Positions 11,228-61,708 of a stretch of 64,000 nucleotides of DNA are shown piece by piece. The DNA comes from Litoditis marina (lineage: Eukaryota > Nematoda > Chromadorea > Rhabditida > Rhabditidae): the NCBI GenBank assembly GCA_964036275.1, contig OZ038436.1, positions 24,154,639 through 24,218,638 on the forward strand. Direction: 5' to 3'. A program made the position numbers and the translations under genes. How positions within the stretch are numbered: the stretch's first letter is position 1; each line of letters begins with the position of its first letter. The notes below the pieces were generated by a model. The model saw only the letters and a program-made list of their open reading frames with translations. It made no database searches and was not told where the DNA came from.

Positions 11228-11369
11228 GACGTTCACTCGAGATCCTGCTCTCTATTTTTGCATTGGTGGGCGTCCTGTTGGGGTGGATAGTTTGAATGAG
11301 ATTGCTGTTTTGTTCCGGTTTGTTTCGGTCGTGGTGATCGTGGTAGAGTAGACTGCCAGATCCATTTGT

Positions 11370-12932: not shown

Positions 12933-12942
12933 CTGAAAACAT
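12933..12942 (-). promoter_or_regulatory. 3' splice/trans-splice acceptor before ORF3
   Basis: Element-strand TGTTTTCAG ends one base before the ORF3 ATG. It fits the nematode TTTTCAG acceptor consensus. Confidence 0.65.
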
Positions 12943-13142
12943 TACGTGTGTTCGAGGTGCGAGGACTATACCCTCAATTATGGCAGAAACTGGCAATTAA
13001 ACAGTAGAGATTTCTGGATTAGTGAACGGAGGAAAAAAAAACGAATATGCGGGATTTGCTTTTGGAGCAAAAATAATAAAGGAGCAAAGGTGAGATTTGT
13101 AAAATTATGGTGAAGTTGTGGTGAGCAAAAACTGGTACACGG

Positions 13143-16100: not shown

Positions 16101-16337
16101 TTCGGTAGAAGTATATATGTGAATTGGGTCTGTTTCCGCGCTACCAAGATCATATTGTGATTTGGAAAATACGTCCTCATATTCCTTTAACAAATTTTTC
16201 AAAGCGATTAATTCGGCATCAGTTAGGTCACACTTAGAAAAGTCAACCACAAACTCCGGGTCAATTTCTGCAGTTTCGGCTTTCACCATGTTCACGCTGT
16301 GTGCGCCTGTTTGCCCTGTTTCCACTATGCTAAATAC
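13143..16337 (-). CDS. pol: pol: reverse transcriptase, RNase H, integrase
   Basis: About 1,060 aa after the gag frame. RT shows DFRKLNEVT, LPFGLRSA and the catalytic YIDD (~aa 231). RNase H shows FTDAS, VEMGA and CDHKPL. The integrase has an HHCC zinc finger, then D (GIDLTG, ~696), D (VTDNAS, ~756) and E (NGATER, ~792), a DD35E spacing. No ATG is needed: the frame is +1 relative to gag and overlaps its TAG stop, so it is probably made as a frameshift fusion. The C-terminus after integrase is a Pro/Ser/Asn-rich tail. All catalytic residues I checked are present, so the enzyme set looks active. Confidence 0.95.
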   Translation of the reverse strand, partial: VFSIVETGQTGAHSVNMVKAETAEIDPEFVVDFSKCDLTDAELIALKNLLKEYEDVFSKSQYDLGSAETDPIHIYTSTEVPVRARPYRVPVKFQAELEKHINSLLKSGRITESNTPWNSNLVLVRKKNGGLRVCLDFRKLNEVTIPDNFPIPRIETILEKIGGNKYFTSLDMANGYLQLKLDPESSYKCGFITENKVYAYTHLPFGLRSAASYFQRSLRIVLAGLDANVLAYIDDILIYNNSFEQHLQTIRKVLERFRSFNIKASPKKCDFARNRITFLGHDISLASYTPNSANVRVIKEFPAPKNVKEVRRFVGMAGFFRKFIPNFAHIAEPLTRLTKKELKFQWTIEQQTAFATLRDALCNEPILGYPDYDREFHIFTDASAVAQGGALMQERIGDTKGFTVIAYCSRTLSDVEQRWPAVQVEMGAIIFALRQFKPYICMSKVILHCDHKPLTFLLQKSKTHDNLARWLIELQGLNIKIVHISGEKNTVADALSRALEDSTDNNSALEELKDIVEFPVCMPIQKSKWINQNPLGAKVHYLMVGAQLQLIDFALEQSKDPQLKQVKSILKNSDIDSDIPDSEKSAILTLAEQCQLTNSDILVLKRHAPYRDYPVIIPKHMTQTIFEALHNSCLSGGHFNWRKTLQKVRTKYFWPTMYTDIFHWTRACESCQLKNSPIPGNKELLQPFHVERMFEKVGIDLTGPLKTTTRDNKYIMNIVCWFSKFVVSVPLPDARTDTITRALLTEFVLKHGTMAEIVTDNASSFTSEAYSQFCKMLSIEHHLTTPYHSMGNGATERTFRTFHAILSKYINRKHEDWDLFVPCAAFCYNTSIHSTTLESPFFLVYGRDPVFCIDRILFPEQPTDTSPEAIEEFKSSMVTNLREAWNTAANNIRAEQEKMKERYDRKAKPSSIKVGDRVLFQNHTSKVGLSRKLVLPWLGQYRVIELNPPLATIQDISNNKKQPRQVHLNQIKKYLELTGPASTSNKEDNEENLQEPTIDTSHDPPPHNFSNSTLIVDNPSPLSPPLVSPADIFSEVEDYMSNSERATTRYNLRKNPTRKRQFSL

Positions 16338-16354
16338 ACTGCCCGTCCAACGCT
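16326..16354 (-). promoter_or_regulatory. +1 frameshift window between gag-env-PR and pol
   Basis: The two frames overlap only about 26 nt, between a TGA closing the pol frame upstream and the TAG closing the gag frame. The sequence at the stop reads CAG TGT ATT TAG C in the gag frame, and pol reads on as AGC ATA GTG GAA. The exact slip codon is inferred. Confidence 0.55.
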
Positions 16355-19300
16355 GTCAGAGCCGCTGTGGATATCTTCATACCCTTGAAAAGTTTCTTAG
16401 GTTCATTTGTTGGGTTTGAAATCATTATGTACGGGCATTCTGAGCTGATGATGGCTGGAGCCACTAATAAATCAAGCTGTGTTATTTTACTTGCTTGCGA
16501 CATGAGAACTAAGTCTACATTTTGAGTTCTGGAGTTGACAGTACAGGCAACAAATGCATCTGTGAGCGGGGGAACTACTGTGTTTTCTCCTACCCTGATT
16601 GCAACTTCATCAGCGTTCGAAATGTTCATTAAACCTGGGTTTCTTCCAAGCGGAATTTGCTCGTCCCCACAATGAAAAACGCCTTGCTGGTAGTCTAAAT
16701 GGAACTTAGGGAGTCTAGCTAGTGCATCGTTACCCAGTATGATCTCGTACGAGTTTGGTCCAGCTGGCGTGCATTTGTCTTCTGTGAAATGAATGACGTG
16801 ATCAAGCTCTGTTTCTCCTATGCGCATAGTAACGTTTTTACAACCTGCCAGTCTCATGGGGCTACCTCCTAACCCTACGGCTAGTATGGTAGTTGGTGGA
16901 TCTAATTGAGTAATTCTTAGGAGGGGGCATATACTTTTGCTTGAAACCGTGAAACTGGCTCCAGTATCAATCAAAGCTAACATGCGCAATCCGTTGGCAC
17001 GGATTGGTATGTGCGAAGTAAAGTACTCTTGTTTTGTATAAGCAACGTTCACACTGGGGATTTCGATAACTGGAGGCCAATTATCCGTTCCTCGCGTACT
17101 GTTTTGTGCTTGCAAGTTTACGGTAACGTTGGATATGGTTTCGGTGCGAGCATTACTGAGCTCAGTTTTACGTGTTCTCTCCAATGGCCAATTGGCAGGA
17201 GTCTCGTTTAGTTTTCTTATCCCAAAAAGAAGTGGGAACTGTAGTTTCAAGTACGTTCCGAAGAGTTTAGATAATATTGTGATTGTTACCCAGATACTAC
17301 ATAGCATTACCCAAAAACTGTAAACTGACCAGTTTCCCAGAAGTGTCGTCCATAGTGAGGTTAAGTTGACGTCCTCCATTATGTGAAGTGGGCCATCCTC
17401 AACTCCCGCTGCATGGTTTATGGCTTCTGTTATTGCTGCTGTGCTGCCGTCTATGGAGTCCCAAAGTTCTGAAAAGTGTGTTGTTGGGCTAAATTCAGAA
17501 ATGTTACCGATGACCATGTTGTGAAAAATTGTAACGGCCGGTGTCATTTTGTCTGCGACTATGTTTCTGTAGTCCAAATGAACTTGATTTGGAGCGGATT
17601 CACTTACCAAACCTGAAAAAGGGTTAATTTCGAAAATAGTTTCACCTTCTGCCAGCTGAAACACTTGGTCGGTATCACAAGGGACCTTAATGGCTCGGTT
17701 GCTTATAACCAGCGTAAGTGGGTCAAGGAAACCGGTCACAGAGACATTTTTTGGTAGGTGTATTCTCACTTTCGGTTTTGAGAAACATTCGCCTTCAAAT
17801 GGTACTATGTTAAAAGTTTTTGGAGCCAGTGCTGTACACACACGTGTGCTTACCACGCCATCGCCGAGGTACTCCGATACAATATCATTCCTCTTCAGCA
17901 AATGTCTTAATGCTAATGTTGGGTTAGCTGCCACCGTTGCAGTGACAGTCGCAGCCATGTTATCTATCGAAGAACATAATGAGTGTACGGTATGCGAGAA
18001 AAGAACTGACAAGTATTCATGCATAGACTCCTCTACTGCAAGGAGTTGGCTCGCAAGTTGATTAGAAGTCACTACTCCTACGTCGTGAGAGGATGCTCGC
18101 TTATTCCGCGATTGTACAAAATTAAACGCAAATCCTTGGTCGCTCACTATCAATTTGTTTTGGCAGTCAGTCAAACGAAGAGAAGAACCATTCCAAGAGA
18201 GTGCTAATTCATGATCGTTACTTAGCCAGATAAAACCAGTGCGAACACCTTGTAATGTAGTAAGAGGAATAAAGCGACATAATTGATTCAGATCAGGTTG
18301 CCACAAGAGAGCGTCTCCAATACGTAGACTACAAAAACCAGAAGAATATGAACAACCTTCTAAATTACCACTTGGAGATTCAGGAGTTAACTGATCAAAT
18401 CGAGAGATAATTGAAGACGGAATAAGAACACAATTCGTGGAAACCGCTGTTTTCTCGCCAATGAAGCTACCAAAAGGAGCGTTGGGCCATTCTAGTTCAT
18501 GTAAATTCGTAGTTTTCCAAATATTATTATGTGAAATCATGTCTCCATGGGAGCATCTATGATGAGTTTGCATTTGCCTACACTCTTCGGCGGACACTGT
18601 CAAGTGATTAGTTTGAGAATGTTGTTCACGAACACCAAAGAAACTTACTGAGTAATGGGTGACTTGCGTGACTATTTTGCACAGATGGGCTGGAGTTGAG
18701 TATTGCATAGAGTTTGGGCGAAATACGTTTAAGGCAACGTGATTCATGTGCGTTCCAAAAGGAGGGACAAAAGATGAGCAATTAATCGATTGCGGCAGAT
18801 GCCAGTGGTTGGCTATTGAGTGCGGGTTACAGAGCAAAGGAGAAAAGGCAACAACTGGATTGAGTAGACAAACAATTGAGAAGATCATTAATAGGTAGTT
18901 TGGAACTGACCAAACTGTGTTCACTGTTGCTGGTCCGTATGCCATCTCGTACAGTCTTTCGTTGCGTTGTTGAAGTGCCTCCATTTGTTCGTTCTTTTGA
19001 GCCAGTGCGGCTTCGAGTTCTTGAAGACCCGCTTCCCTCGGGAGTTTCTGCGCCGTCTGTACTACCATGCTAGCTGGAAAGTTGGAATTTTGTTGATGAT
19101 TAAAGACAGGATTTGCCGGGCCTTGTGGCACTTGACCCGCTTGACTTGACATTTGCTGTAACGTGTTATGCGCTGCTGGTGGGATTACTGTACCCTGTGT
19201 CATCAGATACGGGCAGAATGGTTTAATGTGTCCAACCAATCTACAATGATAGCATGTAATGTTACCGAAATTTGTTCTATTACCTAGAGTACGAGGTTGT

Positions 19301-20283
19301 CTGGGCGTGGATTTCTTACCACCGTAACCACCAAAGCCGGTATTATTAGCAGTATTCTGGTCATTGCTACTACTTTGGTTGACAGTTTGGCATGGTTGCG
19401 TCTGAACTACAGTTACGGGAAAAGAGGGTGTAATCGTGTTTGCCCGTGCTGCTTCGGATAAAAGGGCTTCATATTGTAAGGCTTTTCCAACTGCTTCATC
19501 TAATGATTTTGGTAAACTAGCTTTAACGTGGAATTTGATGTCGTAGCGCAAACCATCCAAGAATGCTTCTACCGCTTTTTCGTTTTGTACCGCTTTACTC
19601 AGTCCTGCTCCAGCTGTCTTGGCTAACTTTCTAAGTCTGTTGACGAAGTCGTCCACAGATTCTCCAATGTTCTGTGTACATGCTCTCAGTTGTTGACGGC
19701 TCAACTCTCTACGCTGTGGGTCCGAAAAGGCCGCTTTAAGGGCGGTTACTAATTCATCGAATGTAATTGCGGCATTGGCGTCGACTAACTCAGCCGCTTT
19801 ATCCCTAGCCTGATCTTTCAAGTAAGCCAAGAGAAGTTTGAGCTTACCTGCGTCGTCCAGTGCGGGTGTGGCTGCGTTAGCTAGGTCCTCGAAGGTTCTT
19901 ATCCATGCTTCGAAGTCGCCTCCGGAGCTACCTGAATACTGTTGCAAACCTGGGCCCTGGTTGAGCCCAAACGCTCCGAAAGCGTTCACCGCAGGTGGAG
20001 CATTTCTTTGATCCACTCTACCGGCTATGTTGACTAGTGCTGCGTTAATTTGATCTACTACATTACGTTCCGCGTTGTTAGCTCGAATTGAATGTGCGGC
20101 ACTCACTGTGGCCAACGCATGATGCGTATTCAGAATGTCATGGGCAGTAGCCTCTCTCAGGAGTTTGAACTCTTTTCCCCTAATGTTAGCTGAGTCTGAC
20201 AGTCTTGGCAAAAGCTCAGCTGTTGTTATCTCCAATGAAGAGATGTCAGGGAGAGAGTTTCCTAACCTACGAGGTGTGTCCAT
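16330..20283 (-). CDS. gag: gag + envelope-like region + aspartic protease in one ORF (1,317 aa)
   Basis: Residues ~70-300 are a retrotransposon capsid-type region (helical, with QQLRACTQ and FLDGLRYDIK). A CCHC zinc knuckle (CX2CX4HX4C) is at ~340-353. From ~460 there is a signal-peptide-like hydrophobic run, a cysteine-rich ectodomain-like segment with several N-glycosylation sequons, a furin-type RNKR site (~728) and a transmembrane segment (~985-1010). A retropepsin follows, with DTGAS (~1106) and ILGNDAL. The envelope-like region is therefore embedded between gag and protease without a stop. I do not recognise its fusion-protein class. It could be released by splicing, since acceptor-like TTTGGTCAG precedes the signal peptide, or made as part of the polyprotein. 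The ORF ends with TAG at 16330, and pol continues in +1. Confidence 0.88.
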   Translation of the reverse strand: MDTPRRLGNSLPDISSLEITTAELLPRLSDSANIRGKEFKLLREATAHDILNTHHALATVSAAHSIRANNAERNVVDQINAALVNIAGRVDQRNAPPAVNAFGAFGLNQGPGLQQYSGSSGGDFEAWIRTFEDLANAATPALDDAGKLKLLLAYLKDQARDKAAELVDANAAITFDELVTALKAAFSDPQRRELSRQQLRACTQNIGESVDDFVNRLRKLAKTAGAGLSKAVQNEKAVEAFLDGLRYDIKFHVKASLPKSLDEAVGKALQYEALLSEAARANTITPSFPVTVVQTQPCQTVNQSSSNDQNTANNTGFGGYGGKKSTPRQPRTLGNRTNFGNITCYHCRLVGHIKPFCPYLMTQGTVIPPAAHNTLQQMSSQAGQVPQGPANPVFNHQQNSNFPASMVVQTAQKLPREAGLQELEAALAQKNEQMEALQQRNERLYEMAYGPATVNTVWSVPNYLLMIFSIVCLLNPVVAFSPLLCNPHSIANHWHLPQSINCSSFVPPFGTHMNHVALNVFRPNSMQYSTPAHLCKIVTQVTHYSVSFFGVREQHSQTNHLTVSAEECRQMQTHHRCSHGDMISHNNIWKTTNLHELEWPNAPFGSFIGEKTAVSTNCVLIPSSIISRFDQLTPESPSGNLEGCSYSSGFCSLRIGDALLWQPDLNQLCRFIPLTTLQGVRTGFIWLSNDHELALSWNGSSLRLTDCQNKLIVSDQGFAFNFVQSRNKRASSHDVGVVTSNQLASQLLAVEESMHEYLSVLFSHTVHSLCSSIDNMAATVTATVAANPTLALRHLLKRNDIVSEYLGDGVVSTRVCTALAPKTFNIVPFEGECFSKPKVRIHLPKNVSVTGFLDPLTLVISNRAIKVPCDTDQVFQLAEGETIFEINPFSGLVSESAPNQVHLDYRNIVADKMTPAVTIFHNMVIGNISEFSPTTHFSELWDSIDGSTAAITEAINHAAGVEDGPLHIMEDVNLTSLWTTLLGNWSVYSFWVMLCSIWVTITILSKLFGTYLKLQFPLLFGIRKLNETPANWPLERTRKTELSNARTETISNVTVNLQAQNSTRGTDNWPPVIEIPSVNVAYTKQEYFTSHIPIRANGLRMLALIDTGASFTVSSKSICPLLRITQLDPPTTILAVGLGGSPMRLAGCKNVTMRIGETELDHVIHFTEDKCTPAGPNSYEIILGNDALARLPKFHLDYQQGVFHCGDEQIPLGRNPGLMNISNADEVAIRVGENTVVPPLTDAFVACTVNSRTQNVDLVLMSQASKITQLDLLVAPAIISSECPYIMISNPTNEPKKLFKGMKISTAALTALDGQCI

Positions 20284-21127
20284 TTTCAGGAAGAGATGCA
20301 GTTGCTCTGGCTCTGGCAGAGAGTTAATTGAGTTCTCAGTTGAGTACTCACGATACTACTGTACGAGTACAAACCATCTGCGCTCTGATATATATACCCA
20401 GGCGATGAGTGTATGTTGTGGTGCTTTCAATGAATATGCTATGTTTTGACTTTAATTCGTGTGAATATTTCAATGTTTTTATTGAATATTGAATCATCTT
20501 ACAATTATTGCGGGAATATTCTTATGTTTTGGTTCAATAAAATTTGTCTGCGCTGGCATGATTGAAAATACCACAACATACGTTACATAATTGTGAGAAA
20601 ATTCAAATTTTCTGACTCAATTCTTTTCACCTAAACCTAATTTAGTCTTCATTTTGCTGGCACGTGTACGGCCAATTCTTCCGAATCAAATTTCACGAGC
20701 GACCATACTGAGGTCCTAACCATTTTACTTACTCACCTTTTGCCTGCACCGCACGTGCGACAATAGTTGAGACTATGCATCGTCCCAACGCGCTCAAAAC
20801 TGTAGGAATACGTTTTCACCACGAGAGAAAACTACCACAAAACTACCAGGACAGTCTATCCTCTAAACGCACCATTTGCTTACCCGTTAAAGTTGAGATA
20901 AAAGGGCCCTAATTCAACTTTATCGGGTTCTAGAGGTTCTGCCTGTTCCGGCCGACCGGGAAACATCTATTTAACCAAACCAGGGTACCCTTCCTACAGC
21001 TAGCATCAAAAAAAATTCGAGAGCATCGAGACGAAGAAACGAATATTGAGAGAGAAAAACTACGAGAAACATAAATGAAAAAGATGGTGGAATGAAAGGG
21101 GGTGGTGGATCGAACTAGAAGTTTCTA
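20284..21127 (-). other. Retrotransposon 5' leader
   Basis: About 840 bp between the primer-binding site and the gag ATG. No ORF of note. Presumably holds the packaging signal and splice donors. Nothing specific was identified. Confidence 0.6.
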
Positions 21128-43798: not shown

Positions 43799-45475
43799 CT
43801 AAACTCGGTCAAAAAACATCATGTACATATTACTCATGAACTTCTTCATGCGTCTAGAACTACGAACGGTCGTGTCACTTATGTTGTCCCAGCCGTCGTC
43901 ATTTCGCACCCAAGCTTCATAGTGACCATGTGTTGGGGACGCTCCTTTGTGCTCTATAGACGATGTTAGCCTCCATCTCGACTCTTAATGAATAAAATGG
44001 TTGTGATAGTTACTCTAAGGTCGTTGTTTTATTTGTTGCAGAACTTAATATTCCTCTCACTCTATATCGTTCTTGAAGGAACTATTCAAACAACTGGCCA
44101 AGTTTGAAACAGTAAGGGGCAACTGTGAGCCACATGTTCGCAACAGTTTGATTAAAACTGGTCGGGATGTATACATGAGTTAATCAATAACCACATAAAC
44201 GAAAACTCACCGAACATTGGCTGTACTGCGCGAGGTCCAGGTGAGAGTTGTATGGTTGTTTTCATCAATCGCATGTTGTGATAAACAAACAGCGGCATAG
44301 TCATGACTAGATGGTTGCATGTTTCCGGAACAGTGATCAACTTTTGCTCTGTGTGTTCTGTCCGTATGCCGCACACATCACAGTGTCTAGTAAGCACCAC
44401 TCCTTGGTTTGTTTGATGTTGTATAAGGTCAGCGAAGGAAATTGTCAAAGTAGGCGAAGAAGGTGGACATGTCAAAGAGAGCATGACAAACTCTTCGACT
44501 TGTCCAAGAGTTTCCTGGAAGAGTTACTAGTATAATTAGTGGAACATTTTCGGAATACTATTTGGTAGTGTTTCAAGTGTAAAGTTGGCGCACCTATGTT
44601 ACATATTATTGTTATGATGTTTAAAAACGTTTCCAGTTCAGTTTTTGGTCTGCGAAGAAAACATACCATATTTGTTTACTAGAAAATTACCGAGAAACTC
44701 AAAGTAGTGCTCACGTTGTTGCAGCTTCCACAAACACATCTCAACTGTTGTAAAAACGTGTACTGGTTTTGTACTTGTTGTGGCAAGTGGGGTAGTAACT
44801 GATCGAAGAATTCGGACACGTCCTGCTGCCCGAAACTCAAATCAGTTCGACCATGTCTTCCTATGAATATAATGTTTAATTGAATAAAATTTGTTCCTAA
44901 ATAGGTCGTTCAACTTTTGCAATCTCAAAAACACAAACAAAATTTTTTTCAGTCAATTGTGTAATTAATGATTAATAAATAACACAGCAACACTTTGATT
45001 GCTTATCAATTAATCAAGTTATTGGAAGAAGTCTTTTTGATCAGGCTTACCTTAATTTTGATTTTACGAAGCATTTGTTTACCAATCATTTTAAGTCGTT
45101 TATGTTGAGCATACTATAACTTGTTTGGTGACGGTAATCAATTAAAAGTGTTTGCCCACCATCAAAATATGAGAGTAGTGTCCGCGATGAAGTCAAACCA
45201 GTAGAATTGATCAACGTTGATAGTTGGTACAATGAATTTTCTTCTTCTTCAGGGGCAACAATATCTTGTTTCACAGAACTCGAACGTAAACATTGCACCA
45301 CACTGTTGCAAAAGCACATTGTACCATTTCCATTTTCCAGAAGCAAATGATTGGTTTGGTTTTGTTGATTTGCTGCTTCTTCAACAGTGGGCAGAACTTT
45401 TTTCGGGGCTTTCTTTCTCGGGGCAGCAGTCTTCCGGGCTGGTTTTTTTGCTGGTGGACGTTCCACTCTGACCAA
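43799..45475 (-). CDS. Ubiquitin-specific protease (USP/C19) domain at the C-terminus of the Helitron protein
   Basis: Exons: 45475-~45100 (Lys/Pro/Ala-rich linker, then the Cys box GTMCFCNSVVQCLR); ~44862-44735 (QQDVSEFFDQLL and a CVCGSC zinc-ribbon half); ~44515-44213 (CDVCG, second half); ~43999-43799 (His box EHKGASPTHGHYEAW, then GWDNISDTTV, TAG stop). The intron from helicase exon end 45646 to 45475 joins phase 0 to phase 0. The joins 44735/44515 (phase 0) and 44213/43999 (phase 1) also fit. Catalytic Cys, His and Asp are present. The join from the Cys-box exon to 44862 does not close cleanly: a TGA lies at its end, so an exon boundary is unresolved or this copy is damaged. It would remove ubiquitin from proteins; its use to the transposon is unknown. 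Confidence 0.82.
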
Positions 45476-45645
45476 CTGAAACGTTTTCATTACTGTAAGA
45501 AGTCTTTCACTGTAATAATTTTTAGTATTAAATTATAAATGCAGTGAAGTAGATTAATAGAACCTTTCATGGAAGTAGATTAATGGAACTTTTAATGAAA
45601 GTAGATTAATGGAACTTCATAAGGCTGAAACCGTGAATGTTTCAC

Positions 45646-48604
45646 CTCTCCATCTCCTGACGTAATTTGATCAGCTGGTTGTTCTCCCAAAAACACAGAT
45701 AACCAGTTTTTGTTTTTCGTCTTGAGGAGCTCTTCGGCAAGTTCCGGTAGTTCGTTGTGAGCAGACAAGTGTTCCATAGAAATAGTATCCCCAAGGCGAT
45801 TGTACTCTTCAACAGCTCTGTGAGAAGCACGTATTGATGGAATATGAAGTGCAATCAGATGCAAACCACCAAGTGCCCGTGCTCTGCTCGTAGCGACATA
45901 CCTTAAACAGAGTAATTTGAAATCTAACGGAACAATCTTTTCGACTGGGACAAAATTTGAAAAGAACTCACGCTTATCCGTCACAAAAACAGTCGTTTAG
46001 TTCCGCCACCACGTTGTCCACAGATACCCCTTGGCACTTGTGAATCGTTATTGCAAACGATAGTGCAAGAGGAAATTGCAATCGGGCGGTTTGAAGTTCC
46101 GGCCCAATATTGTACACTGCTCTCACTCGGTTGATAGTGACGGGATCTTCGATGTGGTCGAACTTCACGACAATTTCTTTCACCACTTCATTCTCAAAAA
46201 CGAGATCTTCAACAACCCCCATGACTCCATTGACCAGTTTTCCATATACGTCGATGTTCCTTCTGAAAAACAGCAGGTTAAACTACTATCACCCTTGGTG
46301 ATAATTTGAATTAACAGCTGTGGTTCATTTTATGTTAAGAATGTTTTTGTTACCAATAGCAATGTCGTTGGTTTTATGTATAGTAAACTTCACGTAAACT
46401 TTAAAATTGTCCTAGTCGATGTCACTGTAAAAGTGTAGGAAAAGTCTACATCGAGTACACATAGAAGAGCGAAAGATTAGAACCAATCTTTTTGACAATT
46501 TTGACTTCAGCATGATGAGTTAGGAATCAACGGTGACTTTGGATAGAAGTTTTAAACTGAACCTAAAATGTTCGTTTATGATAAACTGACTACTCACGTC
46601 AACATAACTCTACTTTTCCTCTGGATAAGTAGCAGTTTAGTTAGTCCTCCAGCTCGCTTTGTTTCTGCTGGATCAGGAACTCCTTCTTCAGTGGTGTGAT
46701 ACAACGTGCTCGATGCTTCGTCAGAGAGTACATCTTTCATTCTCATTCCTTTTTTCAGCCACGGCCTATGGAGGGTCCCGCTGAACATAATTGTTTGAAA
46801 AAATCTGCTGTTGATTTTTTTTAGAATACGCAATGCTTACTTTCTACTACCTACAGATCCGACAAAAAAGTAATGTTCCATTCTGAATCTGTAAAATTGT
46901 ACCAAAATTGATCAACTGTAACAAAACCGATGCGAACCTTTTGTGAACACGGTGTACTCGTTCCTCAATTGCTGGAATCTTGACAGCCAACTCTCCAGTC
47001 GTCAGCTCGAGTTGTTTCACAATGAAGTTGTTGAATGCGAGCACAGTCTTTGTTTTGCAAAACACAGCTAACACTTTGCTGTCGTTTTCCAATAGCTTCA
47101 GGTAGTAGGCCCCCGTCTGTTCCAAAGTAGCCGGAGTTGGAGTTTCACCTGAATTCCCATTTGCTCGCATAATTTATCATTTCATTGTATGTACAAACTT
47201 ATGTATTATGTAGAATAGCCAACCATCTGTTCTTCCTGTGAGCACTGTGATATATCGTCCGAGTAGTGAGTTGACATCAGTAGAGGTGAGTGAGCCTATG
47301 CGTACCCTGTTCATTAGCTCGGAATAGGCAAGATCATCCCTCTGGCGCATGTTTATTGTGAGCTCCCTGCAAGTTTACATTAATATAGTCAACGAAACTG
47401 AGTTTTCAGAGAAAGTATAAATAGTAATGTATCTCGCTTACTGATAGGAGAAGGATTCTGCCCAGAGATCCAGCCCAACTGGTATAGTCTTGAAGATTTG
47501 CTTAGCATGGCGGTCTTTCAATCTAAGAAACACCTCCGGAACACGAACAGGGGGTAGTTGGAGCAGGTCTCCGAATGCAAGGACCAGCAAACCTCCAAAC
47601 ACTGAAACAGTCACAGTGTGTGGCATACATACTCTCTAACCATAATTCAATAAAAGTAAAGTATCAGACATGTACAAATGATTCAATAATATAAATAGTC
47701 AACCAACTTTTTTGAACTCCCGTGATTTCTTCCAGTCGTTGTTCCACTTTCCACAGCATGATGTTGCTCACCATAGATATTTCATCAATAATGAGCAATT
47801 TCACATTTCTAAAGAGAACTCTCAACTCGGAAAGTTTACCCGGTCTCAAGCCACGAAAACCGGCAACCTGAAAAAATCTTTTTGAGAACAATTTAGATAA
47901 ACTGAGATTATTTCTTTCATTCTTAGCTTCCTTCCATTACTTTAAGATAAAGTTCACCGCAGAGATAATTTCCAGTGAGTTATGTCTAATTTTCACCTGT
48001 GTGAAATGGAATTAACTTGCCTTGCCATGTTCTACTTCAATGTTCAATAGTGAATGTAGAGTATTTCCACCAATATTCACTGCTGCCAGACCAGTTGGAG
48101 CAGCCAGAATAACCGGCGGATCTGCGTTCTCTCTACCAGGAATTGTGTATTGCAACGTTACCGCATCAGCTAGAGTAGCAATGAGATGTGATTTTCCGGT
48201 TCCAGCTGAAACATGTGGGTTTTTGATGGGTCAATTGTACGAATCACTCCGTAACTATGGTGAACAAAACTGGGAAGAGCCGTGAGTTTTTGGGTTTTCC
48301 AAACATGTCGACGTGGTCCTAATTGGTGTGCATTGTGAATAGTTCGAAAAGTTTTGAAACTGTACATGGTACTCTTTTGAGCATTGTAGAAATACTCACC
48401 CACTCCACTAACGAACATGTTTGAACTCTTATCCGGATCTTCCTCTCCGTTAACTCTTCTCTCTATACAATTCATGACGTCATCGAATACTTTCTTTTGA
48501 TCGGAGTTTAGAGAATTCATATTTCTTTGAACTTGTTCTGCGTCAACTAGTCGAGGAGCCATTTCTATCGCTTCCACTTCTTCTTCAATGTCCTGCTCTC
48601 TCAT
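45646..48604 (-). pseudogene. Helitron Pif1-like helicase exons
   Basis: In gene order: a charged exon with REQDIEEEVEAIEM, then MNSLNSDQKKVFDDV (48604-~48420); Walker A AGTGKSHLIATLADAV (~48208-48010, the exon junction at G|CT is in phase); Walker B LLIIDEISMVS (~47880-47705); AFGDLLQLPPV (~47600-47440); MRQRDDLAYSELMNRVR (~47365-47230); FCKTKTVLAFNN (~47170-46940); ~46830-46600; FPLALSFAITIHKCQG (~46260-45970) and YVATSRARALGGLHL (~45904-45646). This is the full SF1 Pif1 motif set of Helitron helicases, a 5'-3' DNA helicase that unwinds DNA for rolling-circle transposition. A TAA at 45974-45976 interrupts the last junction where the family has a Gln codon. Confidence 0.88.
45974..45976 (-). 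other. In-frame TAA in the helicase C-terminal motif
   Basis: The exon reads DCFCDG then TAA then GC|GTGAGT, and the next exon gives YVATSRAR. Helitron helicases have a Gln at the stop position (GQ-x-YVA-x-SR), so a CAA to TAA change explains it. The donor phase only fits if the stop is read through. Confidence 0.65.
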
Positions 48605-50008: not shown

Positions 50009-50616
50009 TCAAGCGTGCAGACGGACATATTTATATTCCCTTCGAAAGGGCAAAACACTTTTAAATAAGAACTTGCTCGTTTGTAAACTCACCAATGCAA
50101 GTTTGATGAGATCGGTTTTGTTGAGACGAGTTCCGAAATCAGCGAGGTCCAGTTTTGTCTTACTTTCCCCTTTTCCCACGTAGCCTGTGACATACTCGAG
50201 ATTGTTCTGGGAATGTTCACCCAAATACTGTACGTCCACGTTTCCTCTCCAGCAGAGTAGAAGTGCTGGGTTGTAAGCATTGACGTATGCACAAGATTTG
50301 TCTCTCTTCAACAAGTATGTCTTCTTTTTCGCCATCGGATCATCGAATAGTCCCGTTTTTTCCTGTAGAACAGTTTTAGCTTGGGGTTTGAACGGGAATC
50401 CGAATCTGCATTGTTCTAGTATGCGATTTCCCTTCTTGTAACGAGTCAAACAAGTTTCCAGGCACAGCGAGCGGTGGACTTGAAACTTGTTCACCAAATC
50501 ATGCAGTATTGGCTCCGTGACGGCATCGGGCATACGTGTAGTGATACGAGCATCTATCCAGGCACAAACTTCATCTGAGGTAGCTTGGCCGATTCTAGGT
50601 GCTGCATCGTACCATA
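50009..50616 (-). pseudogene. Helitron Rep domain, C-terminal half
   Basis: Continues exactly where 54104 stops once the inserted TTAA element is taken out: GL then IWYDAAPRIGQATSDEV. It includes LHDLVNKFQVHR, the C-x-RFGFPF segment, NPALLLCWRGNVDVQY and EYVTGYVGKGE, the region of the Rep catalytic tyrosines. Confidence 0.88.
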
Positions 50617-53600
50617 TTAAAGGAGGACTGAAAGGAATGTGGAAACTGAGTTCGGTCAGTTCGCGCGCTCTAATGCAAATGAGGCAGACGCAGACGACCA
50701 GGACCGGCTCAATCAATAGTGTCGGGCAGGCAATCAGACTTAAAATTCTTCCTCGAATGTTTCGTTTTCTTTTCTAATTTCATTATTATTTGATGATTCT
50801 TTTATGTTTCATGTATGTTTCAGTTCAAATATGTTGAAAGACGTTTAGAATCTTGTTGCGCACAACGAAAAACCTGTGCCTAAAGTTAACCGGCTGACTT
50901 TCTTTTAATTTTCGATGTTAGTTTTTTGGAAGATAGTTTCTGGGAAATTAGTTAGTTAGTTAGTGGAAAGAACTGTCAGCAGGTTTTAGTCCATTATCTT
51001 TTTATGAGAAGTCGCTGTGGGGGTTTGGTATTTATCAAAATTCAATCAGCTTTTCAAACTCCCCTATTTACTCCGTTCGTAGTTATTGTTGAAAAGTAGT
51101 AATTCTAGCCATGTTTTCAGGTTCAAGACAGGAAAAGCGTCAATTTGGTATTATGTGGATTGCCCCTTCCTTACATTTAATCGAAGCACCTCTTCACTTT
51201 CCTCCCTGCTACTCTCTCAGGTTTGTATACGAATTTTTTCTTCTTTCTGATTAGTAAAATATGATGATCGTTCCAGAAAATAGGAAAAAATTGTAAATTT
51301 CCATATTTTGCTCGTGAACTCAGCAAACCAGTCAGCATCAGCAGTTCCCTCCCTCTTCTCCTCCGACTACTAAATATTATATCTTTTGGAAGGGATATTG
51401 TTTCTCTGAGAATAATATCTATTGTGAACAACGTTGTCTAACACAAGTTTCAAACGGGAAACAGGTTATTATGTCGATCTTGGTTGTTCCGAATGTCAGA
51501 CTCAGATTATTTCGTACAATGTTGTGAATTGTGTTGCTGAAAGAAATTACTGGTTACTGACCATACTCACCTATTCGTAGTTCGTAGGTTCAGTGTTGTA
51601 ATGTGAGGTTAGTTTCAGGTCTTCTATTCCCTCCCCATGAAGTGTTTTTTCTGTGCTTGGACGTTGGCTGTTTGTCGTTTGTGCTACTCGTAGTCACTTC
51701 ACAAAAAGCATATGGTCGCTTCTTGTAAAATGTAAGTCAACCTAATTGTTTTCTTTCAATTTTCATAATTTTCGTGTCAAAGAATCATACATATGGCCAC
51801 TTTGTTGTCCACAGAAACTCATTGAAAATCGGGTGCTTGATCTAGATGACTAAACGGAACTGGTAAGACAATGAGGTTATGTGGAAAAATTATTGAAATT
51901 GGGGTAGTTTAAAATCTTGATTCTGAAAAAACGAGTGAATCAATAGACCAACCAGCAACGTCGCCCTACGTTTGCAAAGAATGCAAACATTTTCTATGTG
52001 GCTTCATGAAAAATAAGATCATACCTTATTCTTCAGATAACATCGTTGCAAAAGCTAGAAAATACTCATAAAACTACATAATAAAGCTGGAAATCATGAA
52101 CTTTTGTACAACATCGAACGGTTTTTGTTTTCGTAGCTTAGTCACATCGTTCTTCTAAACTTCGGACGAGCATTGATGCTATGACCTATGAAAACTTAGT
52201 ACTCTACGTATAATCTAGTTCTGTAATTTGCATCATTTGTGAATCACAAAATGTTCCATTTATCACATAGAAGTTGTATTGCTTTTCTTGATTAGAGCGC
52301 TTACGAATCACTTTTGGTCAGCGATTTGCCGGGTGGTGGGTAAAGATGAGTGTATAATTATTACTTTTACTCGTTTACAGTACCCGGTGAATCGATATTA
52401 TTGATATCTCTCAGAAGATCGTAATCAATGTCGTTGATTCCCGACATGGATACGGACGGCACCAAGGTAAACTGGTAAACAATCGAATTGATTACTACTT
52501 TTGAATCGATTTTTCTTCATTTTAGTTTTTCTAATTTATTATTGACCGAATTGCCGTAAGTATAACTGATATATTGCATGTTGAGTTCCTATTGCGTTTA
52601 TGCGTGCATTTAATTTCAATAGTTTGGAATGGAATGGAAATAATGCACACAGCACATTTTTTTTCCGACTGTTGTGCTGTTGTCTGTTGTACATATTTCC
52701 TATTTCAGTGGGTAAATTGCCACGCAGTTCTGTGAATGATGAGCTTGTCCCGTGCTCTTTATATGCGGTTACACGTACACCTCGCAAAATGGAAAAAAAA
52801 ACAAGGTAACCTTTTTGGTACTAGGGCGGCGTTTTCGATCGGAAAAGAAAACCCAGAATTGATTATTTGCGTTTGGGTTTTTCAATTGTCTCCACTACCA
52901 GCTCTGGTTTATTTTGCTAAATAAGAATATTGAGGTGGATGTGGTAGTGGATATTGATTATGCGTAACGTAGATTTCGAATGTTCCGATCTGTCAGCTTT
53001 ATCAGGGGGTATACCAAAAAGCAAATTCATGCATAATTGGAAGTGAATAAGGGAAATACAACCAAAAATCGAAGTTTCGGAGAGGACGCGGGCGGGATTA
53101 CAATATTACAAAACCAATCTGTGACCTTTGGCGGATAATGCTCTTTGCTCTTTACCCTACGGATACTGAATACACTATTCAGGTGTACACTAACTGTCGA
53201 GAACTATAAAAATGTTCCGCTCTATTCTGAGACAAAGGCTTTCATTCTATTAGTTCTGTAATAAAAAAATAGACCTCAGCTTCTGCTCTTCGGACATAAT
53301 TTGGCAAAAACACACCGGAACATCAGGAAAATTGTAAACTGGGCTTTATGGTACTAGTACATTTCGTGTAAAATGAGTAATGATAGTATATAACAAACTC
53401 ATATGTTCTAGGGTGTGATTTTCGGGTTTTCCTTCTCGAGTTTCCATGTTCTACGGCTGGCGACAATTTCGGATTCTCTTTCAAATTTGGTATATTTCTG
53501 CATGTCTGTGAAATAGTCTATAAATTTGATTGGCTCTATCTATGGTTTTATCTAGCAAACCTCACCTTATCACTTTCTCACTTTGTATCGTAAATATGTC

Positions 53601-54103
53601 ATTGTAGATGTATATCCTTTTTATTCGAATGTAATGAAAACGTATTTTAGTTTTATTTATTTGTGCTCTTGTGTAGAGAAGTGTACATATATTTCTGAAA
53701 CTAGTGATTTGATAACCCCTGTGTGATTGTTCTATGACATTTTTACTTACTAGAAAAACTCAATTTTGTTGGTTTTAGACAGTGTCCAAACATGATGTCT
53801 TACATAGATTGTACTTATGTTTTCAGTAAACGTAAATTGTATGGATATAAATTTCCCTGCCAGTTACCCAGTGTTGAAAACAATATTGATTGAAAAATGT
53901 GTGTATGATATGATATGAGAACCAAACTGCAAATGCCACCAATTTGGCGCCACTCCAAAACCCTCTACGTGTCTGACCAGGGTGAAAATTGAGTAAAGTT
54001 ACAAAATAGAGGTTTATAGTTAGAATATCAGAAAGATTTAGGTATAGATCGAGTTGTCACAGTTTTCTCTATTATTTTAACATTCCTTTCTGTCCACCTT
54101 TAA
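50617..54103. mobile_element. 3.49-kb non-coding TTAA-flanked DNA transposon
   Basis: Left TTAA (50617-50620) + AGGAGGACTGAAAGGAATGT; right end, read on the minus strand, TTAA (54100-54103) + AGGTGGACAGAAAGGAATGT. Removing it with one TTAA restores the Rep reading frame, which proves it is an insertion. TTAA target duplication is typical of piggyBac-type elements, but no transposase frame was found in 3.4 kb, so it appears non-autonomous. The ends match the MITE at 23254-23447. Confidence 0.9.
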
Positions 54104-56560
54104 ACCGTGGCAATGTGGTGCTCCCCTCATTTGATACTCAGTTCGTCTGAAGAAGTGAATAGCGTTTCCCATCAGTCCGTTTTTCCCGAGAAGATGGCGA
54201 TAGGCAGCTGTCACACGATGTGCAAAGTAGCGCACAAAAATCATAGCGTCTAGAATAGTCATGGACAGTGTGCTCTTTCCTGCATATTGTGGGTACGCTG
54301 CTTCGTACATGAGGCGAAGAGGTGCCCATTCACCTTCGGCTGGGTTCAGGGTGACAAACGCAGTTGGAGGGCCGTAGTATCTGAATTTCGACGTTATTCG
54401 ACATTAAAATTACATTCGTACAAAGTGAAACGGCGTTCAGTGTTTACTACGTCCAATTAGCAACGTTTAATACATTTCTATATTGTTTCCTTTGATGTAT
54501 TTTATTTGGTAAAAGTTTCTTGACGGGAAGTTCATAAGCAAAACTTTCATGTTTCTCGCAATATTGCCATATGCTATGTTTCGAATTAATGTTTCAAGAA
54601 ATCAAGATTACACACGCATAAACTGACTGAATCATGGTCTTTAATTCCTGTCGTCTCTGTTTCCAATAGTCTTGATGGTTACGGAGAGCAGAAAACGTTG
54701 TTGACATGTCGTCGTCGATACTGGTATCTTTGTTGCTCAACCGATTGAGAATGCTTTCGGTATTCATATTTTTTCGCATAGTTATATTCACTGAGCCCAT
54801 CACCGCTTTTAGATCCTGTAAAGACAGTTATGTGTGTGAATGTAGTTGCTAGATAGATACAGTTCAAATCGAGCTTTTGTCAATGTAAGCACCGCCATGA
54901 TTACTCAAAACGTCGAGATAAGTTATGAGATTACCAATCAAAAACTAGGGTATTGAAGTTGCCGTGTTTCTGATTCATTTTATTTTCTTCACTAGCGTTT
55001 GACATTCATTTTTAATCTATCAGATTATTGAACTTTTGTTTATATCAGAAATTTTACAAAAAACTCACCGCTTTGTTGTTCATGAAAATTGCATACTGGT
55101 TGTTGATGAATCGCCTGTCAGCATTTCGAAAACGGCTTCGCATGTACTTAGTTTCAGAGCATTTCACCACACGCTGTTGATCCATTCCACCCTTTCCGAG
55201 CGGAAAAATTTCCGGAAAGGCCTTGACGTCAAGATTAGTCTCAGATGGCTGGACAGGCGCTCCTAAAACGTAGTTATAAACAATGTATGCATATTTGGTA
55301 TATGCAAAGTGCACAAAAACACCCTTGGTTGAATCTCACACTTCTGGTATATTTGCCCTCAAATGTCACATGTTTATTCAATAGCAAGTATGTAAAATTA
55401 TCATTGCTACCTTTCATGTCTTTCAGTTTGTAGATCAGATCAGAAGTTTGTCCAGCGGGTGCGACCGGATCTTTGTTGGTTACGGTGACAGTAGTTAGTG
55501 GAAGTTCAACCAAAGTGAGAAGATGATCATTGGCGTTGGTGTTACCTGATAGATAATATATATATTCTCATTTTTCTAACGATTCTGAGATTACTCAACA
55601 CGTTTCTTTTAACTATTTTTGGCGTGAGATTCGAAATACAAAAATGAGAACTTGTTCTGATGTTTACAATTGAAAGCTTTGTGTACAAAATTGATATGAC
55701 ATTTACCGGGTGCTTGGTCAGATATACCAGCCGAGTCTAACATACTCTCGACGTCGTCGGCGTTGATATTGATGTCATTGTAGTGTCTATTGTTCGCCTT
55801 CAACCACTTGAGAGCGTCTACCACCTGTAATGTAACGATTTGCGCAGATGAAAATGTTGAATGAGACCATTTTTTTGCGTTCGGACCACGGTCTTGTTAG
55901 AGTTATCACTCTCGTTCGGTACCTCAAAAAACAGAAGCTCGTATGATTTTGATGTACTGACCTTTCCCATGTTGACCAGCTGATCTCTAGTCATACCCGC
56001 CTTGGTAGAACTTTGTACAACTATGTTGAAATCGCTGGACGACGGCAGGTCTTTCAGTACTTTGCTTACAGTTTCTTCGATAGGAACAGGGAGATGTAAA
56101 ATTGTCCCGATGTACCCTCGTTGCCCTCCTTTTAGTGTGAAAGTACTCTGTAAATGCATTAAGTGTTGCTAGTTCGGAAGAACTGAATAAGTATGTTCCA
56201 TTTTATGTGCAACCGCTAACACCGCGTACACAAATTAAAATCAGAATAAAAAAATTAGTTTGTATAAAAAGATGGGAGGTGGATGAAGACTCCTATATGG
56301 TGAAGGGTGTCAGGACTGTTTTTGATGTAATAACCTGATGCCATAATTTGATATTCCCCACCATGAGTGGTCGAACACGCCTTATTAGAGAGTACTCCAG
56401 CCAATTCAAGTTCTTCAAAACGTCCGGAATGTCATCTAGCTCCAATCCATTTTGAATACACAGTGGTGGCATATGACCCTGAAAAGTTTTGTATGTCAGT
56501 GAATGGCACCATCAGAGATATTGTCTACAGTAAAAATTTCAAAAACCTTTTTCATGAATG
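54104..56560 (-). pseudogene. Helitron DUF6570-like and Rep (HUH) exons
   Basis: In order: LICKECISFMKKV (~56590), PPLCIQNGLELDDIPDVLKN with LISRRVRPLM (~56475-56340), GQRGYIGTILHLPVPIEETV (~56160-55960), VDALKWLKANNRHYNDI (~55825-55710), ~55545-55415, FPEIFPLGKGGM with FRNADRRFINNQYAIF (~55263-55070), ~54817-54620, YYGPPTAFVTLNPAEGEW (~54380) and the HUH motif GAPHCHGL (~54104-54125). The HUH histidines coordinate the metal for DNA nicking in rolling-circle transposition. The frame is cut right after the motif by the TTAA element. Confidence 0.87.
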
Positions 56561-56715
56561 AGATGCATTCCTTGCATATTAATACAGGTGCACTGTCAGG
56601 AGGCCCTCGAAGGAAAGGTAGTAGCTTGGGATCGTTAGCAGGGATGTTTTTCACCTGAAAATGCGAAATGAGGTATCAGAACAGTGGGGTTTTAATATGC
56701 TGAACATGGCTGAAT

Positions 56716-59705: not shown

Positions 59706-61708
59706 CTGTTAATCCGGCGCTCGGCTTCTTTAGAACGCACATCTGGGTTGACGCGCGATTTTCTTTTCTGAGATGCTTCTCTTGTTTGAGAAGCTGCGAT
59801 GTTCGCAATACGTCTGTAACAATCATAAAGGTTATTGAGAAATACAAAATGGTAAATAGTCCTCTTCTTTCGAGTGATTCAAACAAAACCATATAGTAAA
59901 TATAACTTTAGTAAAAGTTGAGATTTTTAAGCAGAATTATAATTTTAACCAAGTCTCTCAGGATCAGTGCGAGCAGCTTGTTTCTGAGTTAGTTCTCTCG
60001 TACGCTCTTCTTCGAGATGAAGTTCGCGTCTGGAATGTGTGTTGTCAGAACCATTTTCTTTTTCGAAACATTTCAGCATACAAAAATTCTCATAAATGAC
60101 TCACAACTCTCGTTTCTGTTGTGCTTCCTTTTGAAGTCTCTCAGGATCGGTACGCGCAGCTTGTTTCTGTTGAGCCTTCCTTTTACGTTCGGCTTCGAGA
60201 TTGAGTTCGGTGCTAAATATAGTGCTATCAGAAATCTTTTTTTCATCTTGGAACATTTTTAGCAGATGGATAATTGATATTGTTCACTCGCAATTTGCGT
60301 TTTTCCTCTGCTTCCTTTCGAAGTCTGTCAGGATCGGTACGCGCAGCTTGTTTCTGAGTTAGTTCTCTTGTGCGCTCTTCTTCGAGATGAAGTTCGCGTC
60401 TGGAATGTGTGTTGTCAGAAACCATTTTCTTTTTCGAAACGTTTCAGCATACAAAAATTCTCATAAATGACTCACAACTCTCGTTTCTGTTGTGCTTCCT
60501 TTTGAAGTCTCTCAGGATCGGTACGCGCAGCTTGTTTCTGTTGAGCCTTCCTTTTACGTTCGGCTTCGAGATTGAGTTCGGTGCTAAATATAGTGCTATC
60601 AGAAACCTTTTTTTCATCTTGGAACATTTTTAGCAGATGGATAATTGATATTGTTCACTCACAATTTGCGTTTTTCCTCTGCTTCCTTTCGAAGTCTGTC
60701 AGGATCGGTACGCGCAGCTTGTTTCTGAGTTAGTTCTCTTGTGCGCTCTTCTTCGAGATGAAGTTCGCGTCTGGAATGTGTGTTGTCAGAAACATTTTCT
60801 TTTTCGAAACATTTTAGCATACAAAAATTCTCATAAATGACTCACAACTTGCGTTTTTGTTCCGCTTCTTTCCGAAGTCTCTCAGGATCGGTACGCGCAG
60901 CTTGTTTCTGAGTTAGTTCTCTTGTGCGCTCTTCTTCGAGATGAAGTTCGCGTCTGGAATGTGTGTTGTCAGAAACCATTTTCTTTTTCGAAACATTTTA
61001 GCATACAAAAATTCTCATAAATGACTCACAACTTGCGTTTTTGTTCCGCTTCTTTCCGAAGTCTCTCAGGATCGGTACGCGCAGCTTGTTTCTGAGTTAG
61101 TTCTCTTGTGCGCTCTTCTTCGAGATGAAGTTCGCGTCTGGAATGTGTGTTGTCAGAAACCATTTTCTTTTTCGAAACATTTTAGCATACAAAATTCTCA
61201 TAAATGACTCACAACTTGCGTTTTTGTTCCGCTTCTTTCCGAAGTCTCTCAGGATCGGTACGCGCAGCTTGTTTCTGAGTTAGTTCTCTTGTGCGCTCTT
61301 CTTCGAGATGAAGTTCGCGTCTGAAGTGTGTATTATCGGAAACCTTTTTCTTCTCTCGAAATATATTAAGAATTCAATATTTCAGTTATTCACTCACGAT
61401 TTGCGCTTCTGTTCAGCTTCCTTTTGAAGTTGCTCGAGATTCGTTCGAGCCGCCCTTTTTTGCAGATTATCTCGATTTCGCTGCTCAGCTAAATTAGACT
61501 GTCTCCTGAAAGTGTGAGGGTACTTATCAATCGTGATGGAACCGAAACGACAACTATGGAAAGCAATAGGTTTACAAACATTTGCAGGCCTACTTAACTT
61601 TACACAGCAGGGAAACATCAAATTGGTTTAATTACATCAATTGGGGTTCATACCTCAACGGTTTTTCTCGAGTTCCTCGGAGTTTTTCTGCGGATCGCTG
61701 TGTCGCCT
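59706..61708 (-). CDS. Array of 108-nt exons encoding 36-residue charged repeats (Helitron N-terminus)
   Basis: Exons of exactly 108 nt at 61398-61505, 61213-61320, 61030-61137, 60846-60953, 60663-60770, 60476-60583, 60292-60399, 60105-60212 and 59706-59813, after a lead exon ~61656-61708. All have the same phase, so each adds 36 residues such as QAARTDPERLRKEAEQKRKL. Two sequence types exist: A (RELHLEEERTREL) and B (TELNLEAERKRKA), partly alternating. The repeats are predicted long helices/coiled coils, like the Arg/Glu-rich N-terminal repeats of many Helitron proteins. 59950-60029 is a shortened 80-nt copy that would break the frame and is probably skipped. Confidence 0.82.
60105..61320. 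repeat. Exon-intron tandem duplication array (units ~183-187 bp; A+B pairs ~371 bp)
   Basis: Exon starts are spaced 183-187 bp apart, and introns are as alike as exons (CATTTTCTTTTTCGAAAC, CATACAAAAATTCTCATAAA). The three units from 60846 to 61320 are almost identical, so the array is recent or gene-converted. Confidence 0.92.

Follow-up and report, generated by a model that had tools for sequence, protein, structure and literature searches.

How does a ubiquitin-specific protease (USP) come to lie directly behind the helicase of a transposon? The question is raised by a stretch of 64,000 nucleotides from the nematode Litoditis marina (GenBank assembly GCA_964036275.1, contig OZ038436.1, positions 24,154,639 to 24,218,638 of the forward strand), here called the window, in which a preliminary description made from the letters alone had placed a Helitron helicase joined to a USP domain at positions 43799..48604. 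Judged from its predicted exons, the locus is best read as a Helitron gene for Rep and helicase (RepHel) with a C-terminal USP domain. With a probability of roughly three quarters we take it to be an old Helitron copy from which one spliced RepHel-USP protein is predicted, and whose USP domain would deubiquitinate the element's own replication proteins or host proteins nearby and thereby sustain transposition.

The USP domain and its place behind the helicase

On the minus strand, between about 56.7 and 43.8 kb, the window carries in this order the domain DUF6570, a Helitron Rep domain with its HUH motif, a Pif1-type helicase and the USP domain. The claim that a USP core directly follows the Pif1 exons on the same strand held when its motifs were located and their codons checked. 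USP exon 1 (45160..45475) encodes a basic, proline-rich linker and the Cys box GTMCFCNS with the catalytic Cys codon at 45316-45314; exon 2 (44691..44860) encodes GQQDVSEFF, which includes the motif QQDVSEFF, and the first Cys-x-x-Cys (CVCGSC); exon 3 (44211..44514) encodes the second Cys-x-x-Cys (CDVC, within CDVCG) and the stretch after it; and exon 4 (43799..43953) encodes the His box GASPTHGHYEAW with the His codon at 43924-43922, then WDNISD with its Ser-Asp pair (Asp codon 43876-43874), and the stop codon TAG. The four introns, i.e., 45159-44861, 44690-44515, 44210-43954 and the one at the joint to the helicase (45645-45476), all have GT-AG ends. The joint intron had been described as joining the last helicase exon to the USP linker in phase 0 with the ends GTGAAA...GTTTCAG, and this is how the sequence reads, its splicing being deduced from these letters. 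Joined together, the four exons give 945 nt without an internal stop, namely 314 sense codons and the TAG ending at 43799. None of 20,000 base shuffles left such a frame open, which rules out mere chance and is not a test of splicing.

A profile search of the spliced exons, which had been proposed as a check, assigned the window domain to Pfam UCH (PF00443) with 1.2e-11 and 45.1 bits, at a cut-off of 23.9 bits, and the equivalent domain of a second copy, C183 (see below), to the same family with 3.8e-12 and 46.8 bits over profile positions 3-241 of 254. The two Cys-x-x-Cys pairs of a zinc ribbon are CGSC and CDVC in the window and CEAC and CGVC in C183. By profile, the closest solved structures are those of USP12 and USP46, followed by USP21 and USP2. 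These cellular USPs resemble the window domain in the Cys box, the QQD motif, the Cys-x-x-Cys pairs, the GHY of the His box and the adjacent Asp, and differ in that the window USP is joined to RepHel and has Ser as the canonical third catalytic residue. As far as can be judged from sequence comparison, the domain is too distant for its origin to be placed among the cellular USPs. A search with an alignment of two of the USP sequences gave a single match, P0001, a USP without transposon domains, and a tblastn search against phage records gave no match. Pfam UCH gave a list of 41 exon matches across the L. marina genome, but the USP exons of the copies described below are not among them, so such a genome search by itself misses these USPs.

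The part in front of the USP is that of a Helitron, which extends beyond the span given in the preliminary description to at least about 56.7 kb. DUF6570, an N-terminal Helitron-associated domain (PF20209, 1.5e-17), lies at 55612..56675 in four open stretches whose exon ends are not fixed. The Rep exon (Helitron_like_N, PF14214, 2.5e-15) begins at 54100..54385, runs to the HUH motif GAPHCHGL, is cut there by an inserted DNA transposon of 3,478 bp (50622..54099), and continues at 50012..50621 with LIWYDAAPRIG... up to the Tyr motif EYVTGYVGK; both motifs of a Helitron Rep are present in the split exon. Behind Rep follow the exons of the Pif1-type superfamily 1 (SF1) helicase (45646..48600) with the motifs GTGKS, DEISMVS and HKCQG, of which the last exon ends ...GDGE at 45646 (PF05970, 8.1e-24 in the window; 3e-23 in C183). 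The window scores for PIF1, Helitron_like_N and DUF6570 were obtained from upstream stretches joined by hand. At 59948-61373, likewise on the minus strand, there are tandem coding-like repeats (RRELHLEEERTRELTQKQAARTDPERLRKEAEQKRKL), possibly an N-terminal part of the same Helitron gene.

Equivalent copies and USP tails in other Helitron proteins

The preliminary description had suggested looking for other Helitron copies with the same order of domains. In the 262-Mb genome the helicase-USP arrangement is found in three copies, the window copy (C2), C3 and C183. Queried with the protein sequence of the N-terminal USP half, the genome gave matches at four places, the three copies and a lone fragment (C1:10206028), which has no helicase match within the 20 kb fetched, and a search with the C-terminus of the helicase led to the same three places and to further helicase pieces. 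Wherever in the genome the USP match and the helicase C-terminus co-occur, the order and the joint intron agree (three of three). The donor always follows a Glu codon and the acceptor is in phase 0: GGAGAG|GTGAAA in the window, GGAGAG|GTGAGC in C3 and CTAGAG|GTAACA in C183. The C183 copy runs from Helitron_like_N to the His box of the USP (in a hand-joined reading Helitron_like_N scores 2.2e-18, and PIF1 as given above), and the C3 copy has a gap of N ahead of the Tyr-motif region. None of the three copies has an in-frame ATG in the stretch from the splice acceptor to the catalytic Cys, except for a Met right before the Cys in two of them.

The USP domains of the window and C183 are only 33% identical and have nevertheless retained the Cys, the QxD, both Cys-x-x-Cys pairs, the GHY and the Ser-Asp pair. 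Between the window and C3 the ratio of nonsynonymous to synonymous substitution rates (dN/dS) is 0.14 over 239 USP codons and 0.06 over 461 helicase codons at a dS of about 2, the codons being taken from alignable stretches and thus leaning toward the conserved side; in comparison with C183, synonymous change has reached saturation in the window and has almost done so in C3 (USP dN/dS 0.27). Amino-acid change in the USP is restrained.

The genome has at least 90 matches to Helitron_like_N. Two other Helitron lineages among them were read, L049 (on C245) and L050 (on C4), in which the helicase frames stop shortly past the last helicase motif and in which, over 9.9 and 7.5 kb, no match was obtained with the USP exons (best E 0.72) or with a USP profile. 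Eight of nine helicase-exon matches at 10.56-10.86 Mb of C1 (L039-L046) were examined over 10 kb each; at a threshold of E 0.01 all eight of these repeated loci match one C-terminal helicase exon only, with no other query exon and no USP, and being fragments they neither support nor refute the fusion. At C245:32191 and C16:36685817 Helitron_like_N lies within very long open frames of 3765 and 3606 amino acids, of which the first was read in part.

The arrangement is not confined to L. marina. A search with the C183 helicase found at least 145 proteins below 0.001 among 7,992 scored candidates, of which the best 120 were listed. Precomputed matches among these 120 comprise OTU (52 proteins), UCH (3) and Ulp1 (peptidase C48; 1), and 8 of the 120 Helitron-type proteins listed carry a USP or the relic of one C-terminal to Pif1. 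For example, P0021 (1749 amino acids, from a contig of 7.1 kb) has by hmmscan Helitron_like_N at 180-376 and, behind PIF1, UCH at 1421-1721 above the cut-off; likewise by hmmscan, UCH follows PIF1 in P0059 (925-1215, 2.2e-23, above the cut-off) and in P0075 from the brine shrimp Artemia franciscana (776-1060, 7.4e-24, above the cut-off), the gene model of which is without the Rep part. In P0087 the UCH match stays below the cut-off (20.4 of 23.9 bits). A profile built from the tails of these four proteins and of two copies from L. marina further matches P0084, P0034, P0002 (Panagrolaimus) and P0096 (Artemia) with 1e-14 or better; it should be noted that this six-tail profile also scores the cellular P0001 highly and hence detects USPs generally, not a Helitron subtype. 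The tails of P0074 and P0058 (Parnassius) have weak scores with the USP profile, and that of P0099 (Cotesia) is a USP remnant as judged by eye only. Between 2 and 36 sequences are grouped in the clusters of P0021, P0075 and P0059, a possible sign of more than one copy. The AlphaFold result for P0075 (8 rows) has a mean predicted local distance difference test score (pLDDT) of 59.9, with most of the USP part below 70. Of the fusion first described, a RepHel protein with a C-terminal USP is supported, and a USP behind Pif1 occurs beyond this genome; the copy in the window is, as described next, no longer intact.

Lesions, function and rival explanations

A number of observations weigh against an element with a working deubiquitinase. 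The Rep exon of the window is split right behind the HUH motif by the inserted element (50622-54099), which is flanked on both sides by TTTAA, a duplication, has the ends AGGTGGACAGAAAGGAATGT and, inverted, AGGAGGACTGAAAGGAATGT, and, over the 2.9 kb searched, has 95-98% identical copies elsewhere in the genome (C170, C4, C16); an uninterrupted Rep can no longer be read from the window copy. In C183 there is a frameshift ahead of the Tyr motif, and the joint intron is closely preceded by an in-frame TGA; in C3 the Cys exon is frameshifted and QQD has become QQY. From these lesions it follows that the genome shows old copies of this USP-Helitron lineage. A simple scan of the three 3' flanks found no Helitron ends (hairpin and CTRR), the copies being too diverged for end-finding, and a DNA search for recent copies with the 3' end of the window element found the window itself only, the 3' flank being single-copy; mobility of the lineage is therefore deduced from the proteins that it encodes. 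In the window, C3 and C183, Ser occupies the canonical third catalytic position, usually Asp or Asn. Catalytic residues are lost in four of the eight tails from other sources, namely Cys and His in P0034 and P0084, His in P0002, and in P0096, which has no His box. Finally, when the USP part of the C183 protein served as the query, none of 2,650 candidates reached E 0.001.

How the domain would act can be outlined as follows. As is established for Helitrons, the nicking and rejoining of single strands would fall to Rep and the unwinding of the DNA to the helicase. Provided that the predicted splicing takes place, the USP would be carried along as part of RepHel and could strip ubiquitin in cis or from host proteins close by, and this removal would spare RepHel, or a host partner, from destruction, so that transposition could continue. 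Beyond what the sequence shows, we infer a single joint transcript and protein, deubiquitinase activity of the domain, and a role for it in saving RepHel or a host partner from ubiquitin-driven destruction, like the role already suggested for VTD and OTU in other Helitrons. The deubiquitinases of Helitrons are suggested to prevent the proteasomal destruction of transposition proteins, and for the VTD domains of zebrafish Helitrons deubiquitinase activity was measured (PMC9741609).

That catalysis has been lost and the USP fold is kept as a non-enzymatic module for binding ubiquitin or a partner is the alternative that survives best, although we consider it unlikely. The serine in all three copies, the QQY and the frameshift in C3 and the Cys and/or His missing from half of the eight tails elsewhere would all fit. 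The serine need not be fatal, however, since an Asp or Asn at the third position is common but not defining (USP15 functions without it), and since USP1, USP15, USP40 and USP48 depend on the next Asp, a residue highly conserved in all human USPs except CYLD and USP50 (PMC10867860). This adjacent Asp, the "fourth critical residue", is kept in the window, C3 and C183. Indeed, the window and C183 have kept Cys, His and the following Asp despite their 33% identity, and Cys, His and an Asp are retained also in P0021, P0059, P0075 and P0087.

Somewhat less probable still is that the gene is a domesticated single-copy host gene derived from an old RepHel-USP and is conserved for its use to the host. 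Domestication of Helitron-like deubiquitinases has been published for VTD genes (PMC9741609), and with only three near-complete copies found, each at a dS of about 2 or more from the others, with a single-copy 3' flank and with restrained change in the USP, the same might be suspected here. Every copy, however, has lesions in Rep, USP or joint, the Rep exon in the window is split by a transposon that has 95-98% copies, and elsewhere a USP stands behind Pif1 in protein clusters of 2 to 36 members. It is improbable that the USP belongs to an independent host gene, or to a captured piece of one, that merely adjoins the helicase: Helitrons do capture host genes, the window has an in-frame ATG (VMKTFQ) within the joint intron from which a separate USP could start, and the USP fragment on C1 lies without a helicase, but this ATG is not common to C3 or C183, three copies at unrelated places, with USPs as little as 33% identical, share the order and the phase-0 joint, and UCH stands behind Pif1 within single predicted proteins elsewhere, e.g., in P0021.

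Known proteases of Helitrons and a probable exchange of USP for OTU

Proteases of the ubiquitin system are not new to Helitrons. An OTU cysteine protease in Helitrons and Helentrons has been published (PMC4067079, PMC2836005); like the window element, these combine RepHel with a cysteine protease of the ubiquitin-cutting type, and P0004, P0007 and P0034 likewise have their OTU on the C-terminal side of the helicase. The window protease differs in being a USP (C19) with zinc-ribbon cysteines, and neither its USP part nor the C183 protein has an OTU match. The VTD Helentrons also have a deubiquitinase inside a Helitron protein, which, its authors propose, keeps the proteins of transposition from being degraded; these elements differ by a VTD domain with an Asp-x-His motif and by a C-terminal apurinic/apyrimidinic (AP) endonuclease (PMC9741609). 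At the His box of the window an Asp-x-His of the VTD type is absent and the Asp comes after the His; the AP endonuclease (PF03372), a mark of Helentrons, gave no match in the C183 protein or in the scanned pieces of the window. A C19 peptidase joined to a transposon protein is likewise known from Trichomonas, where it is linked to Transposase_11 (PMC2836005); this is an unrelated DNA transposon, not a Helitron, with one protist protein named.

Closest in wording is Helinoto, an icefish Helitron2 with "three deubiquitinase-like domains" (Capriglione 2014), of which the title is available from the references of PMC4528327, PMC7599744 and PMC6387122. It shares with the window element the deubiquitinase-like domains in a Helitron. 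If the Helinoto domains are USPs, the present case would be a further member. In the literature on Helitrons and rolling-circle transposons that was covered, which leaves out most subscription journals and the Repbase reports, no report naming a USP was found. As far as seen, we are thus dealing with a known kind of element with a class of deubiquitinase not reported for Helitrons, with Helinoto remaining a lead.

In addition, P0003 from Mnemiopsis leidyi ends in an Ulp1 protease (C48) behind Helitron_like_N and PIF1, which adds another member of the ubiquitin-family proteases to those of Helitrons.

In P0034 and P0084 the USP, lacking Cys and His, is located between Pif1 and an OTU with the intact motifs GDGNC and NHY, an arrangement that, from these motifs, is likely a swap of deubiquitinases. 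For a first helicase tree, the 120 proteins listed were reduced to the 113 with a helicase match of 380-900 residues, and together with the three copies from L. marina (116) were thinned with a filter at 60% identity to 30, all USP rows being retained; for a second tree, 6 of the 30 were dropped as long or distant and 7 were added, with L049 as outgroup on a branch of about 6 changes per column. In the first tree the window, C3 and C183 join P0002 (92 in the approximate likelihood ratio test, SH-aLRT) inside a set holding all USP and OTU rows; in the second, the base is not resolved and the three copies no longer join P0002. The USP label requires 3 changes on the helicase trees as compared with a mean of more than 9 for shuffled labels, and the USP rows branch off successively around a set containing the OTU rows. 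The OTU label requires 4 changes in the second tree, no fewer than shuffled labels, and is thus not clustered beyond chance, since the four OTU rows kept are interspersed with rows for which no OTU is listed. Such counts cannot separate gain from loss, the root of the helicase trees not being fixed, and a tree of the USP domains with P0001 as outgroup is not resolved, its long branches meeting.

The helicase trees are compatible with a single old USP and a later OTU in its place; several separate captures of a USP may be the alternative. Since motif-keeping USPs, a dead USP with an OTU, and elements with an OTU alone share one part of the helicase tree, a USP may have been built early into the RepHel of a large animal Helitron lineage and later replaced by OTU. 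We put this somewhat below even odds because the root is not fixed, the OTU label is not clustered, the USP tree is not resolved and the class of the Helinoto deubiquitinases has not been seen.

On this reading, the USP would be the fourth ubiquitin-family protease in Helitrons, alongside OTU, VTD and Ulp1, and the removal of ubiquitin would be a standing need of rolling-circle transposition in animals. A USP at the same place in several sources, together with a dead USP beside a motif-bearing OTU, would mean that the activity rather than the fold is selected. Mobile elements would also have to be added to the possible sources of USP genes.

Elsewhere in the window, at 9434-20355 on the minus strand, lies a Ty3/gypsy element, in which gag with an aspartic protease forms a frame of 1341 amino acids and pol (reverse transcriptase, RNase H, integrase) one of 1070 amino acids. 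Downstream of this pol, on the same strand, there follow a frame of 523 amino acids without a Pfam match and one of 605 amino acids with an SF1 helicase (AAA_11/AAA_12, 6e-32); a retrotransposon carrying its own helicase would be unusual.

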